Shown: positions 38,353-44,652 of the stretch, piece by piece
How positions within the stretch are numbered: position 1 is the first letter of the stretch
Layout: each line of letters begins with the position of its first letter
Assembly (NCBI RefSeq): GCF_000633935.1
Contig: NZ_KK214998.1
Span: forward strand, 1,350,411-1,414,410
Length of the DNA: 64,000 nucleotides
Reading direction: 5' to 3'
Source of the DNA: Ectothiorhodospira haloalkaliphila ATCC 51935
Lineage (GTDB): Bacteria; Pseudomonadota; Gammaproteobacteria; Ectothiorhodospirales; Ectothiorhodospiraceae
Notes under the pieces: model-generated
The model's input: only the letters and a program-made list of their open reading frames with translations
The model's database searches: none
What the model was told of the DNA's origin: nothing
Translations under genes and position numbers: made by a program

Positions 38353-39018
38353 ATGAATACACATCCCTTTGAATCCGTCATCGTCGACACCGGCGAGAAT
38401 CCGAAAACCTGCGTCATCTGGCTGCACGGCCTGGGGGCCGATGGCCATGACTTCGAGCCCATCGTGCCCGAGATGCAGTTGCCGCCCGGCAAGCCGGTCC
38501 GCTTCATCTTCCCCCATGCCCCGGTGCGGCGGGTGACCATCAACAATGGCATGCCCATGCGCGCCTGGTATGACTTTCGGGAACTGGCCCCGGGGGAGGG
38601 AGAGGATCACGGCCAGGTGGGGGAGGGGGTCGCCGCTGTTCAGACCCTGCTCGCCGAGGCCAGGCGTCATTACGACACGGTGCTGCTGGGGGGATTCTCC
38701 CAGGGGGGCGCCATGGCCCTGCTCACCGGCCTGGTGGAAGGGCCGGCCCCGGACGCGGTCTTCGGACTGTCCACCTATCTGCCCGATGCCGCCAAGGCGG
38801 GTCTGCAACTGTCCCCCCGGGCGGCCGGCCTGCCGATCTTCATGGGCCACGGCAGTTTCGATCCCGTGATCCCTCCGGATTTCGGCCGTCACACCAGCCA
38901 GGCCCTGCGCGCCATGGGGGTGACACTGCAGTGGCATGAATATCCCATGCCCCACAGTGTGTGCCCCGACGAGATCCGTGACCTGAGCCGGTGGATGGGG
39001 CCGCTCATTCAGGCTTAG
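38353..39018 (+). CDS. phospholipase/carboxylesterase family alpha/beta hydrolase
   Basis: A 221-residue esterase. The oxyanion segment is VIWLHGLGADGHDF, the nucleophile is in LGGFSQGGAMAL, the Asp is in HGSFDPVIP and the His in YPMPHSVCPDE. It resembles bacterial acyl-protein-thioesterase-like carboxylesterases that hydrolyse short acyl esters. ATG 38353 fits the family start; an upstream in-frame codon at 38209 gives a poor extension. The end overlaps the convergent symporter-kinase gene by 14 bp. Confidence 0.9.
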   Translation: MNTHPFESVIVDTGENPKTCVIWLHGLGADGHDFEPIVPEMQLPPGKPVRFIFPHAPVRRVTINNGMPMRAWYDFRELAPGEGEDHGQVGEGVAAVQTLLAEARRHYDTVLLGGFSQGGAMALLTGLVEGPAPDAVFGLSTYLPDAAKAGLQLSPRAAGLPIFMGHGSFDPVIPPDFGRHTSQALRAMGVTLQWHEYPMPHSVCPDEIRDLSRWMGPLIQA

Positions 39019-41776
39019 CGGGCTTGCCATCCTCCTTCGCCGAGCCATCCAGCGGCGGCAGGTTGAAGGCGAAGGTGGTGCCGGCGCCTTGCTGACTATC
39101 CACCCAGATGCGCCCGCCCAGGTGCTGGATGATGTTCTTGCAGATGGCCAGTCCCAGGCCCGTTCCCTCGGGCTTTTCGGTGAGGGCATCCCCCACCTGG
39201 CGAAACTTCTCGAACAGGGTGGGCAGATCCTCGGTGGGGATGCCGGGCCCGTTGTCCTCCACCTCCACCTTGACGCCCCCTTCCTCCAGGAGCGTGAGCC
39301 TCAGGGTCACGCGCCCCGTATGGGCAGGGGTGAACTTCACCGCATTGGACAACAGGTTGATGATCACCTGCATGAGCCGGTCACGGTCGGTGTCCATGGG
39401 AACCGGATGATCGGGCAGGTCCAGATGCAGGTCCACCGCCTTGGTCTTGAAGAGCTGTGACGTGGCGGTGGCGGCATCACTGAGGACTTCCACCAGATCA
39501 TAACGGCGGATGTACCAGCGCATGGCACCGGATTCCAGCTTGGCCAGGTCCAGCACCTGATTGATCAGTCGGGTGAGGCGCTCGCTCTCGCTGATGATGA
39601 TGCCCAGGAATTCCTGACGCTTGTCCGGGTCCAGGTCCCGGTTGTCATAGAGGATCTCGGTGAAGGAGCGGATGGAGGTGAGCGGCGTGCGCAGTTCATG
39701 GGTGACCGTGGAAATGAAATCATCCTTCATCCGATCCAGTTGCTTGAGTTGCTCGTTGGCGGCGCGCAACTCCCGGGTGGCTGTTTCCAGCTCCCGTGAC
39801 TTGGTTTCCAGTTGCTGGCTGTAGGCGATCACCTGGCTGGCCTCGTCCAGGATCTCCATCACCTCCTCCAGGCTGACCACATCCCCCTTGGCCACATTGG
39901 AGACCATCACCCGCGCCGAGGCGGCGCCGATGGAGCCGGCCAGCATGCGCTCGCACAACTGGATCAGATCGGAGTCCGCTTCCCGCATCTGTGTCAGATC
40001 CAGGCCCCGACCGCGAGCATAGCGTTCAAAGGCCGCGCGGGCACGGGCCTCCCCCACGAAGCGCTTGAGCAGATCGAACAGGTCATCCACCGTGGCCGTG
40101 CCGCGCCAGAAGCGGGAGATGCCATAACGCTCGGCCGACAGACGGAAGACGTCCACGAACAGATTGGCCTGGATGCGCTCCATGGTGTTCTGCTGAGTGA
40201 GCAGGGAGACCGTCACGTAGGCCCCCAGGTTCACCAGCATGGACCAGACCAGGGAATGGGTGATCTGATGCAGCCCGGACAACCCGAACAGCTCGTAGGG
40301 CTTGAGCAGTTCGATACCCCAGGGCCCATGGGTGATGAATGTGGCGGGCAGCCAGCCGGCCTGGGCAAAGGAGGGCAGCAAAAGGGTGTACAGCCAGACC
40401 ACAAACCCGGCCGACAGGCCTGCCAGGGCACCCTTGCGGGTGGCCCCCTTCCAGAAGATGCCCCCGATCAGGGCCGGGGCGAACTGGGCCACGGCGCAGA
40501 AGGACACCAGCCCCATGCTCACCAGGCCCACCATGTCGCCAGTCACCCGAACATAGGCATAGCCCAGCAGGATGCCGATGAGGATGGCACCGCGGCGGAT
40601 ATACAGCAGCAGCCGGGTGAGGTCCCGACGCCGCTCCAGCCCCAGCCAGCGGATGCGCAGCAGCGCCGGCATCACCAGGTCGTTGCAAAGCATGGTGGCC
40701 AGGGCCACGGTCTCCACAATGATCATGGCCGTGGCGGCAGACAGACCACCCAGGAACACGATCAGTGCCAGCAGCTGCATTTCCTGGGAGAGGGGCAGGG
40801 CCAGCACGAAGTTGTCCGGGTTCACCTCCCCGTATCCGAACATGAGCACGCCGGCGAAGGCGATGGGCAGCACGAACAGGTTGATGAGGAACAGGTACAG
40901 GGGGAACAGCCAGGCCGCCTTGCGCACATGGCTTTCGTCCACGTTCTCCACCACCGCCACCTGGAATTGTCGCGGCAGGACCAGCACCACCACCATGGCC
41001 AGCAGGGTGAAGGCAATCCAGTTGCCGTAATCGGACAGTTCTCCCACGTGGAACAGCTCGGCCAGCTGGGGATGAGCCGCCGCCTGACTGAACAGATCTC
41101 CCACGCCACCGAAGATCACGAAGGTGACCACCAGGCCCGCCAGTATGAAGGCCACCAGCTTCACCACCGACTCGAAGGCGATGGCGGCCACCATGCCCGA
41201 GTGGTGCTCCGAGGCATCGATGTGGCGGGTGCCGAAGAGGATGGCGAAGACGGCCAGGATCAGGGCCACATAGAAGGCGGTGTCGGCGTAGAAGGGCACG
41301 GTATGAGCCAACTGAGAGGCCGACGTATCCGGATAGCTGACCATCACGTTGAAGGTGTCGGACACCGCCCGGAGCTGCAGGGCGATATACGGTACCAGAC
41401 CCACCAGGGCAATGATGGTGACCAGCCCCCCCAGCATCTGGCTCTTGCCGTAGCGGGAGGCCACGAAATCGGCGATCGAGGTGATGCGGTTGACCTTGGA
41501 GATGCGCACCATCTTGCGCAGCACGATCCAGAACAGGGCCGCCATGAGGGTGGGGCCCAGGTAGATGGGCAGGTAATGGATGCCGCTCTCGGCGGCCAGC
41601 CCGACACTGCCGTAGAAGGTCCAGGAGGTGCAGTAAACGGCGATGGAGAGGGCGTAGACATAGGGGCTGTTGATGACGCTGCGCCCCTGATCCGAGCGCT
41701 TGTCGCCCCAGTAGGCAATCCCGAAGAGGATCAGCAGATACCCCAGGGAGACACCGATGACCAGCCCGATGTTCAC
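39005..41776 (-). CDS. Na+/solute symporter-histidine kinase fusion (CbrA/CrbS-like)
   Basis: A 923-residue protein. Residues 1 to about 510 form a 12-13-helix SSS-family symporter (MNIGLVIGVSLGYLLILFG, SKVNRITSIADFVASRYGKS). A linker coiled coil follows, then a histidine kinase with H-box THELRTPLTS (His about 693), N-box NLLSNAVKF (about 810), G1 VEDNGPGIP and G2 GTGLGLAICKNIIQ. CbrA and CrbS couple solute sensing to carbon-use control, for example histidine or acetate. The likely partner receiver is at 44272-44652. The start overlaps the small membrane protein's stop (ATGA), as with cbrX-cbrA. Confidence 0.9.
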   Translation of the reverse strand: MNIGLVIGVSLGYLLILFGIAYWGDKRSDQGRSVINSPYVYALSIAVYCTSWTFYGSVGLAAESGIHYLPIYLGPTLMAALFWIVLRKMVRISKVNRITSIADFVASRYGKSQMLGGLVTIIALVGLVPYIALQLRAVSDTFNVMVSYPDTSASQLAHTVPFYADTAFYVALILAVFAILFGTRHIDASEHHSGMVAAIAFESVVKLVAFILAGLVVTFVIFGGVGDLFSQAAAHPQLAELFHVGELSDYGNWIAFTLLAMVVVLVLPRQFQVAVVENVDESHVRKAAWLFPLYLFLINLFVLPIAFAGVLMFGYGEVNPDNFVLALPLSQEMQLLALIVFLGGLSAATAMIIVETVALATMLCNDLVMPALLRIRWLGLERRRDLTRLLLYIRRGAILIGILLGYAYVRVTGDMVGLVSMGLVSFCAVAQFAPALIGGIFWKGATRKGALAGLSAGFVVWLYTLLLPSFAQAGWLPATFITHGPWGIELLKPYELFGLSGLHQITHSLVWSMLVNLGAYVTVSLLTQQNTMERIQANLFVDVFRLSAERYGISRFWRGTATVDDLFDLLKRFVGEARARAAFERYARGRGLDLTQMREADSDLIQLCERMLAGSIGAASARVMVSNVAKGDVVSLEEVMEILDEASQVIAYSQQLETKSRELETATRELRAANEQLKQLDRMKDDFISTVTHELRTPLTSIRSFTEILYDNRDLDPDKRQEFLGIIISESERLTRLINQVLDLAKLESGAMRWYIRRYDLVEVLSDAATATSQLFKTKAVDLHLDLPDHPVPMDTDRDRLMQVIINLLSNAVKFTPAHTGRVTLRLTLLEEGGVKVEVEDNGPGIPTEDLPTLFEKFRQVGDALTEKPEGTGLGLAICKNIIQHLGGRIWVDSQQGAGTTFAFNLPPLDGSAKEDGKPAKPE

Positions 41777-44219: not shown

Positions 44220-44271
44220 GGAGTCGATGGCCTGGCTGCTGGCTGGGATACAGGTCGGTCAAGGGCCCGGA

Positions 44272-44652
44272 TCAGGCGCCATCATCCGGCATGTAGTCAC
44301 GCACGCGAGCCACGACCTCGCGGGTGGAAAAGGGCTTGGTGATGTAGTCATCCGCCCCCATGGCCAATCCCTTTTCCTGCTCGATCTGCCGCCCCTTGGC
44401 GGTGAGCATCAGGATGCGCACATTCTTCCAGTCCGGATTGGCGCGGATCGTCTGACAGACATCATAGCCATCCCGCTTGGGCAACATGACATCCAGCAGG
44501 ATCACATGGGGTGGTCGTTCGCGCACGGCTTCCAGGGCGCTCTCGCCATCACGGGCGACGCGCACGTCGAAACCTGCCTCTTTCATCAAAAATTCCAGTG
44601 AGAGGACGATATTGGGCTCATCATCCACCACCAGTACGGATTGGGGTGCCAT
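44272..44652 (-). CDS. single-domain response regulator
   Basis: A 126-residue CheY-like receiver with no output domain. The acidic pocket is SVLVVDDEPN, the phospho-acceptor Asp is in ILLDVMLPKRDGYD (about Asp55), the Thr is in MLTAKG and the Lys in DYITKPF. It is the first gene of the unit that continues into the pseudo-kinase/exonuclease (52-bp gap), small membrane protein and symporter-kinase. It is the likely phosphorylation partner of the kinase. AGGAGGAGA lies just before ATG 44652. Confidence 0.9.
   Translation of the reverse strand: MAPQSVLVVDDEPNIVLSLEFLMKEAGFDVRVARDGESALEAVRERPPHVILLDVMLPKRDGYDVCQTIRANPDWKNVRILMLTAKGRQIEQEKGLAMGADDYITKPFSTREVVARVRDYMPDDGA

Follow-up and report, generated by a model that had tools for sequence, protein, structure and literature searches.

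A conserved kinase, receiver and pseudokinase-exonuclease gene set in Ectothiorhodospira and beyond suggests a nuclease output for a two-component pathway

Two-component systems deliver their signals to transcription factors, second-messenger enzymes, motors or other kinases. GdpP is a single polypeptide of membrane helices, a PAS domain, a degenerate signalling domain (GGDEF) and, at its C terminus, a phosphodiesterase/nuclease (DHH/DHHA1); it has no receiver partner. Here we describe a four-gene set from Ectothiorhodospira haloalkaliphila ATCC 51935, within a window of 64,000 nucleotides (contig NZ_KK214998.1, positions 1,350,411 to 1,414,410), that encodes a lone receiver (RR), a fusion of membrane helices, PAS domain, pseudokinase and exonuclease (EX), a 99-aa protein (CX) and a symporter-kinase (SK; Table 1). 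EX shares the overall layout of GdpP but has a pseudokinase and a DEDDh exonuclease instead. Loci, genomes and families of our comparative sample carry L, G and f numbers, respectively.

A closely related mechanism is that of Caulobacter DivL. This histidine kinase has PAS domains and is dead, yet it binds the phosphorylated form of its receiver through the usual docking face (PMC4211667). DivL (4q20) is among the matches of the EX pseudokinase by both sequence and fold, and an Arg at +3 from the phospho-His position is kept in both proteins; DivL, however, regulates the kinase CckA (PMC9430884), whereas EX would supply a nuclease as output within its own polypeptide. The CbrXA-CbrB and CrbS-CrbR (MxtR/ErdR) systems resemble the locus in their SLC5-STAC kinase, in the small two-helix protein that overlaps the kinase start (CbrX) and in a link to carbon use, but their regulators, CbrB and CrbR, bind DNA (PMC13022988, PMC9100948). 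SK instead pairs with a lone receiver: no cognate NtrC/LuxR-type regulator accompanies it, the receiver beside it having no output domain, and the CbrA-type kinase of this genome lies with its sigma54-activator partner at a separate locus, on contig C2. In Pseudomonas putida KT2440 a CBS-domain protein and an RNase_T exonuclease (PP_0354/PP_0353) share one operon, the promoter of which is bound by ErdR (PMC9927547); the two-component link there is transcriptional, whereas EX itself carries membrane helices, a PAS domain and a pseudokinase. The proofreading exonucleases DnaQ and PolC have the DEDDh fold and motifs in common with EX, which nevertheless falls below the epsilon cut-off and stands apart in the tree. 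Searches of one open-access library returned no description of the fusion or of a receiver-controlled exonuclease.

The conserved set of kinase, receiver and fusion suggests that phosphate signalling may operate an enzyme that cuts nucleic acids rather than a gene switch. We propose a two-component pathway with a membrane-tethered nuclease, gated by the receiver, as its end-point (SK to RR to pseudokinase to exonuclease) and put the probability of this reading at slightly above one half. The pathway would most likely work like DivL-DivK joined to an effector enzyme. SK would sense a small carbon compound or its transport, the compound most likely being a monocarboxylate such as acetate or pyruvate, and would autophosphorylate on H693, for which the motifs are present. 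Because SK has no receiver domain of its own, phosphate would pass to D54 of the neighbouring RR, as gene coupling and the intact residues suggest. Phosphorylated RR, which lacks an output domain, would then dock on the pseudo-DHp of EX by the face known from DivL-DivK, and the dead kinase core with the PAS domain would act as its sensor, switching the DEDDh exonuclease on or off at the membrane. In what is the weakest step, the nuclease would probably trim RNA and so determine how genes for the uptake and activation of carboxylates are expressed. The initial annotation saw EX as a membrane sensor in its own right; its main input is more likely the receiver, and hence the SLC5 kinase.

The four open reading frames are as initially annotated, with the spacings given there of 52 bp between RR and EX and 5 bp between EX and CX; CX and SK besides overlap by 4 bp (GTGA). 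The set sits downstream of argH, and a strong Shine-Dalgarno sequence precedes the ATG of RR. Pfam recognises Response_reg (E-value 2.5e-29), PAS (6.8e-7), RNase_T (1.6e-39), HisKA (2.2e-20) and HATPase_c (2.4e-33). A promoter and terminator scan gave one promoter-like site, inside the fusion gene, against 1.0 expected, and no terminator.

On the evidence of sequence comparison, the middle region of EX is a dead histidine kinase. Pfam makes no call there (in EX it finds the PAS and exonuclease domains only), but a profile of 29 diverse fusions aligns the region to the DHp and CA domains of the SK family (profile-profile probability 98.2, E 3.5e-14, 258 columns). Searched alone against the PDB, the profile of the region matches histidine kinases, including HK853 (3dge) and DivL (4q20, 0.0023), and within its own genome SK is the sole clear match beyond EX itself (1.1e-11; next 0.007). 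V268 stands at the phospho-His position, H380 at the N-box Asn and W407 at the G1 Asp, the ATP-lid stretch of SK faces an 11-column gap and GTGLGL is lost. These losses are general among 50 long EX rows, a set that includes L113 (elsewhere excluded as a fusion) and unthinned rows from close species: His is found at the phospho-acceptor site in 0 of the 49 rows with a residue there, the N-box Asn in none of the 50, and Trp replaces the G1 Asp in 49, the gapped row probably being L113. Hydropathy, the PF00989 match and residues 268, 380 and 407 thus bear out the initial description of two membrane helices, a PAS domain and a kinase-like region without His and ATPase motifs.

Structure prediction points the same way. 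Folded alone, the kinase-like region has a predicted local distance difference test score (pLDDT) of 85.7. VIA-align places it with CusS (Z 14.5, root-mean-square deviation (rmsd) 17.5 over 188, a Z of this size not being decisive for long helices) and DivL 4q20 (Z 12.1, rmsd 19.4 over 194), and its CA part with 1ysr_B (Z 13.9, rmsd 2.8 over 130). The AlphaFold model of the whole fusion has a predicted template modelling score of 0.37, so its domain arrangement is not interpretable, and VIA-align on that model in effect tested the exonuclease domain only. A mere resemblance to kinases is rejected by the profile-profile match, by Foldseek and by VIA-align of the region folded alone.

We find that the docking face of this dead kinase is conserved. 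DivL contacts its receiver at alpha1 offsets +3, +7, +11, +12 and +15, and mutating the Arg at +3 weakens receiver binding (PMC4211667). Counted from the lost His in 38 thinned fusions, these five offsets have a mean entropy of 0.98 against 2.07 for the helix (p 0.0016), and the Arg at +3 is kept in 37 of the 38. With its phospho-His lost and its docking face conserved, EX would be DivL-like, albeit with imperfect shift controls.

The docking domain and the receiver gene also vary together. An adjoining lone receiver is present at 37/51 exonuclease loci with a recognisable DHp (cut at 15 bits) and at 4/19 without one (p 2.3e-4), or at 31/41 versus 4/19 when the set is thinned to 60 loci (p 1.5e-4). 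L001 and L113 were left out of this test beforehand and L097 was dropped for want of upstream sequence; L009 was entered as receiver-less though its receiver is present, so that 38/51 would be right, and the sample is not random, since L155-L174 are 20 loci chosen from 51 matching phylum genomes, with f223 over-represented. None of eight exonuclease forms without a detected pseudokinase has a lone receiver beside it. Seven short forms (L025, L111, L155-L159; frames of 467-512 aa) consist of a PAS-like stretch and an exonuclease with no pseudokinase detected and no lone receiver in the surrounding stretch, and five of them belong to f223, a family that we would guess to be Rhodobacteraceae-like from L025 (Aestuariivita).

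Receiver position tells a similar story in three genomes where EX and SK lie at separate, readable loci, as the receiver then sits with EX and not with SK (L018/L143, L024/L144 and, in G046, L035/L177); L017 could not be judged in this comparison, its SK lying at contig ends. In the genome of L022 the SK locus (L140) holds a further receiver and fusion. Three Aquisalimonas genomes have their receiver beside SK (L137-L139), and one of the three has another beside EX (L021). Overlaps of 1 to 20 bp between RR and EX occur in L105-L108, L110, L135 and L136, with starts chosen by script. Gene coupling, docking-face conservation and the co-variation of docking domain and receiver gene together argue for the link between receiver and pseudokinase that had been suspected from the window.

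The other half of the fusion is a predicted DEDDh enzyme of the RNase_T/DnaQ superfamily, with Asp-Glu, Asp and His-x4-Asp residues placed in a DEDDh fold. The three motifs initially noted are intact in the window protein (D512, E514, D600, H653, D658), all five catalytic residues are intact in 52/53 exonuclease rows, and the domain is the best conserved part of EX (mean entropy 1.32 versus 1.97-2.61 in other parts). Among solved structures it is best matched by the exonuclease domains of PolC (2p1j, 7.1e-29; 9qpc_A, Z 24.6, rmsd 1.7 over 192), and it lies nearest to the DNA/RNA 3'-5' exonucleases (PolC, DnaQ, DinG, RNase T, TREX). An identity as the replicative epsilon subunit (DnaQ, Pol III) is ruled out by a score below the cut-off and by a separate tree group. 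EX reaches 112.3 bits on the NCBIfam epsilon model, where the cut-off is 222.7 and is reached by the two epsilon rows checked; in the tree, 39 of 41 fusion rows and one stand-alone row group apart from 15 epsilon-like rows, which form a group of their own (100/100, length 2.8) that includes L002 of the same genome (284.5 bits).

The initial annotation made its proposal depend on gene order being conserved in relatives, and we find the set well outside the genus; the observation is correct and more general than a single locus. The closest named EX matches are in E. marina (95%), E. shaposhnikovii and E. magna, and the Ectothiorhodospira loci examined keep the order argH-RR-EX-CX-SK with two exceptions: E. 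magna L008 and L031, the latter from G002 and presumably also E. magna, lack both CX and the symporter half of SK. Beyond the genus, one strand carries RR, EX, CX and SK in L095, L098, L100, L135, L136 and L140-L142, and SK, RR and EX occur together in L105-L107, L110, L132, L133 and L178; RR, EX and SK are found together in seven other gammaproteobacterial families (f16, f26, f69, f75, f134, f145, f171). In Paracoccus denitrificans PD1222 an operon (PDEN_RS25395-RS25415) of genes overlapping by 4 to 11 bp encodes a nucleotidyltransferase-substrate-binding protein (DUF294-type), a small protein, SK, RR and EX, the last three annotated as ATP-binding protein, response regulator and exonuclease domain-containing protein. 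The operon is also present in Cupriavidus necator C39, where the gene table has no entries at that place. A peculiarity of Ectothiorhodospira is rejected by these occurrences in other families and classes.

EX and SK tend to occur in the same genomes. Among 369 gammaproteobacterial genomes, 15 have both, 3 EX only, 5 SK only and 346 neither (Fisher p 6.6e-20; our Fisher tests treat genomes and loci as independent, with phylogeny uncorrected). The 18 fusion genomes were hand-picked from 25, seven exonuclease-only genomes being dropped (G078, G171, G223, G258, G309, G310, G329), and three of the 18 (G139, G369, G071) are fragments or partial model matches. A lone receiver adjoins SK in all five SK-only genomes. 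At 49 fusion loci we find a receiver within 1.5 kb in 32, SK within 5 kb in 26 and a DUF294-like gene within 8 kb in 28, and in 43 one or more of SK, DUF294, symporter and acs are present; several of the 49 are close relatives, and after thinning at 80% identity a receiver is present at 25/38. Of the 13 genomes behind L012-L025 (L014 left out; 12 with a full fusion, L025 with a short one), 12 have SK, in one case as two contig-end pieces, and G422 has none. In the phylum sample, 51/398 genomes match the EX family at 1e-80, 39 of them near full length by our own count.

The residues expected of a working kinase-receiver pair are present in both proteins. RR residues D10, D11, D54 and K106 are found in 41/41 rows, with T84 in 40 and Ser in one, and the SK His, N-box, G1 and second G2 Gly residues in 37/37 rows (one of them CbrA-like, L112), with the first G2 Gly in 35. 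By their kinase His, N, G1 and G2 motifs and receiver acidic pair, Asp, Thr/Ser and Lys, SK and RR are thus predicted to form a two-component system. At positions 7-627 the SK family profile matches 10ed_A (1.7e-108), a solved chain of 606 residues listed as 'histidine kinase', and from about 675 onward it matches many kinase chains, consistent with the CbrA/CrbS-type symporter-kinase first recognised here. SK would accordingly be an SLC5-STAC histidine kinase, a symporter joined via STAC to a kinase; 10ed_A is taken as the CbrA SLC5-STAC structure from its chain length and PMC13022988, the listing itself being silent. Pfam makes no SSF call on the symporter half and detects neither a PAS nor a receiver domain in SK. 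The type forms a separate class, with 20/369 gammaproteobacterial genomes at >= 1236 bits and the next matches from 801, a set cut at a gap (1235.9/800.7 bits) chosen after the search. The symporter half has been lost twice, in E. magna (L008 10194-11276) and G046 (L177 5319-6458), leaving STAC-kinase frames that keep HELRTP, DNGPG and GTGLGL while RR and EX are also kept, the G046 kinase lying apart from RR-EX. Kinase, receiver and fusion therefore look like the core, with transport dispensable.

Several observations weigh against a receiver-gated nuclease. In the docking comparison, entropy is lowest at the true phase among the nine shifts compared, yet shifts of -4 (1.15) and -1 (1.20) come close, leaving the control unclean. 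Four loci have a receiver but a DHp under 15 bits (L134 11.3, L162 14.0, L161 0.1, L167 -3.2), and no receiver was found by BLAST threshold within 1.5 kb in 17/49 fusion loci, among them L134, which has an annotated divergent receiver, and L097, which lies at a contig edge. In L012-L016, L019 and L020 a full fusion stands in a DUF294-DUF4212-symporter cluster with no adjoining receiver or kinase. SK is present without the fusion in 5 of the 20 sampled SK genomes. These genomes, the seven loci just named and the f223 genomes described below speak against an obligate set of four genes. At 1e-100 no SK match is seen in G676 and G310, both of which encode an exonuclease of the family, and SK matches in G139, G259, G171, G042, G369, G668 and G746 are only weaker, of another type or partial. 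A joint loss of docking domain and SK was expected and held in L023/G422 (best 177.6 bits) and L109/G369 (350 bits), but it failed in nine f223 genomes, which keep an SK-like kinase (941-1004 bits) with an exonuclease lacking a recognisable DHp, and likewise in G424 (L025; 978 bits). The association of EX with SK thus does not rest on docking alone. PP_0353, finally, can be likened to EX only through its published description as a putative RNase_T exonuclease (PMC9927547).

Some of these points would suit a different division of labour, in which SK and RR act on another target (the DUF294 nucleotidyltransferase or SK's own symporter) and EX is a separate PAS-sensing enzyme of the same carboxylate regulon. 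The SK-RR pairs found without a fusion, the seven clusters in which a full fusion has no adjoining receiver, the kinases kept in f223 and G424 and an overlap of RR with a DUF294-like gene in L124 would all fit. We nonetheless consider this unlikely in view of the receivers that stay with EX when SK is elsewhere, the overlapping RR-EX genes and the association of docking domain and receiver.

One further point against receiver gating is a fusion paralogue, L140 (4024-6096, genome G421), which has lost 4/5 catalytic residues while keeping its docking domain, and its receiver, in an acs-RR-EX-CX-SK operon; G421 also has an intact copy (L022). A dead nuclease in such a place would be expected if the pseudokinase served as a decoy that titrates phosphorylated RR and tunes SK signalling, the exonuclease being a passenger or housekeeping domain, and DivL offers a precedent for a dead kinase that reads its receiver (PMC4211667). 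The near-universal retention of catalytic residues (52/53 rows) while kinase motifs were lost, together with the low entropy of the exonuclease (1.32 versus 1.97-2.61), makes such a decoy quite improbable.

Neighbouring genes suggest what a receiver-gated nuclease might serve. The order acs-RR-EX-CX-SK is found in L140-L142, and Marivivens has acs-DUF4212-symporter-DUF294-(hypothetical)-RR-EX. On contig C2 of the E. haloalkaliphila genome (L092 5-11629) the CbrA-type kinase, sigma54-activator regulator, a DUF294/CBS/cyclic nucleotide monophosphate (cNMP) protein, DUF4212, a symporter, a second DUF294 and acetate-CoA ligase lie in a row, with no exonuclease in the stretch examined. Together acs, DUF294 and DUF4212/symporter genes suggest use of acetate or pyruvate and related acids. 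PP_0353, a putative RNase_T exonuclease encoded in one operon with pp_0354, a target of ErdR, is of importance when P. putida grows on pyruvate but not when it grows on acetate, and the authors of that study speculate on mRNA decay (PMC9927547). That an MxtR/ErdR-regulon exonuclease is important on pyruvate, together with this speculation, favours RNA as the EX substrate, an assignment by analogy that we hold with low confidence.

More broadly, and tentatively, the set may represent a widespread pathway without transcriptional output, from transporter-kinase to lone receiver to dead kinase at the membrane to an allosterically switched 3'-5' exonuclease, by which turnover of RNA, DNA or a nucleotide signal near the membrane would track carboxylate supply. 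If true, a nuclease end-point would add a post-transcriptional or nucleotide-signal output to two-component systems, and DivL-type receiver sensing by a dead kinase would have been reused to control an enzyme. It would also give a testable frame for the puzzling importance, described in PMC9927547, of a putative MxtR/ErdR-regulon exonuclease to P. putida growing on pyruvate.

The recurrence of DUF294-like genes within 8 kb of 28/49 fusion loci invites a writer-eraser scheme, in which DUF294 would attach a nucleotide to a target, for example the symporter or a small protein, and the receiver-gated, membrane-tethered DEDDh phosphodiesterase would take it off again. A Pseudomonas protein with cyclic AMP-binding, CBS and nucleotidyltransferase parts is predicted to regulate proteins by nucleotidylation (PMC5715377), and placement of EX at the membrane beside a symporter would suit such a role. 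Against this, the nearest relatives of the exonuclease domain are DNA/RNA 3'-5' exonucleases, and DUF294 does not adjoin EX in the window. Removal of nucleotides from proteins is also not known to us for any DEDDh enzyme, and we regard the scheme as very improbable.

The small protein CX was initially called CbrX-like. Its position, its 4-bp overlap with SK and its two hydrophobic helices uphold that comparison, which a family assignment does not, CX giving nothing above the Pfam cut-off and no NCBIfam match. Like CbrX, it is a two-helix protein whose gene overlaps that of a kinase. CbrX translation is required for CbrA expression whereas the identity of the peptide is not (PMC6591292), and a cryo-electron microscopy preprint shows CbrX bound to CbrA yet dispensable for growth on histidine (PMC13022988). 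CX may resemble CbrX in these respects and, by analogy with CbrX/CbrA, would partner SK at the membrane and couple its translation.

Table 1. Features of the RR-EX-CX-SK set, in window coordinates.
Feature	Coordinates	Strand	Basis
RR: lone CheY-like receiver, 126 aa, without output domain	44272..44652	-	Open reading frame, Pfam Response_reg
EX: predicted membrane-PAS-pseudo-histidine-kinase-DEDDh exonuclease fusion, 713 aa, GTG start	42078..44219	-	
EX residues 7-62: two predicted membrane helices (7-25, 44-62)	44034..44201	-	Hydropathy
EX residues 138-249: PAS domain	43473..43808	-	PF00989
EX residues 252-324: pseudo-DHp; V268 in place of His, R271 (Arg at +3) kept	43248..43466	-	
EX residues 330-466: degenerate CA domain; N-box Asn, G1 Asp and G2 lost; W407 at G1 Asp	42822..43232	-	
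EX residues 509-665: predicted DEDDh 3'-5' exonuclease domain, catalytic D512 E514 D600 H653 D658	42225..42695	-	
CX: 99 aa, two hydrophobic helices, CbrX-like in position	41773..42072	-	Overlap, hydropathy
SK: SLC5-STAC histidine kinase, 923 aa, GTG start, without receiver domain	39005..41776	-	
SK SLC5 symporter + STAC (~residues 7-627, profile positions taken as residue numbers)	39896..41758	-	10ed_A match
SK HisKA (683-750) + HATPase_c (797-908); H693, N811, D841, G843, G871, G873	39053..39730	-	Pfam, motifs

Three minor features of the surrounding DNA complete the description. A convergent gene that we named carboxylesterase-like by eye (38209-39018) overlaps the 3' end of SK by 14 bp. 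Just past argH, at 46420-48215, the plus strand carries two genes with a 4-bp overlap, one for a His_kinase (PF06580) protein and one for a LytTR-type response regulator. The G+C content is about 57% at 30001-34000, compared with 62-67% in the rest of the window.

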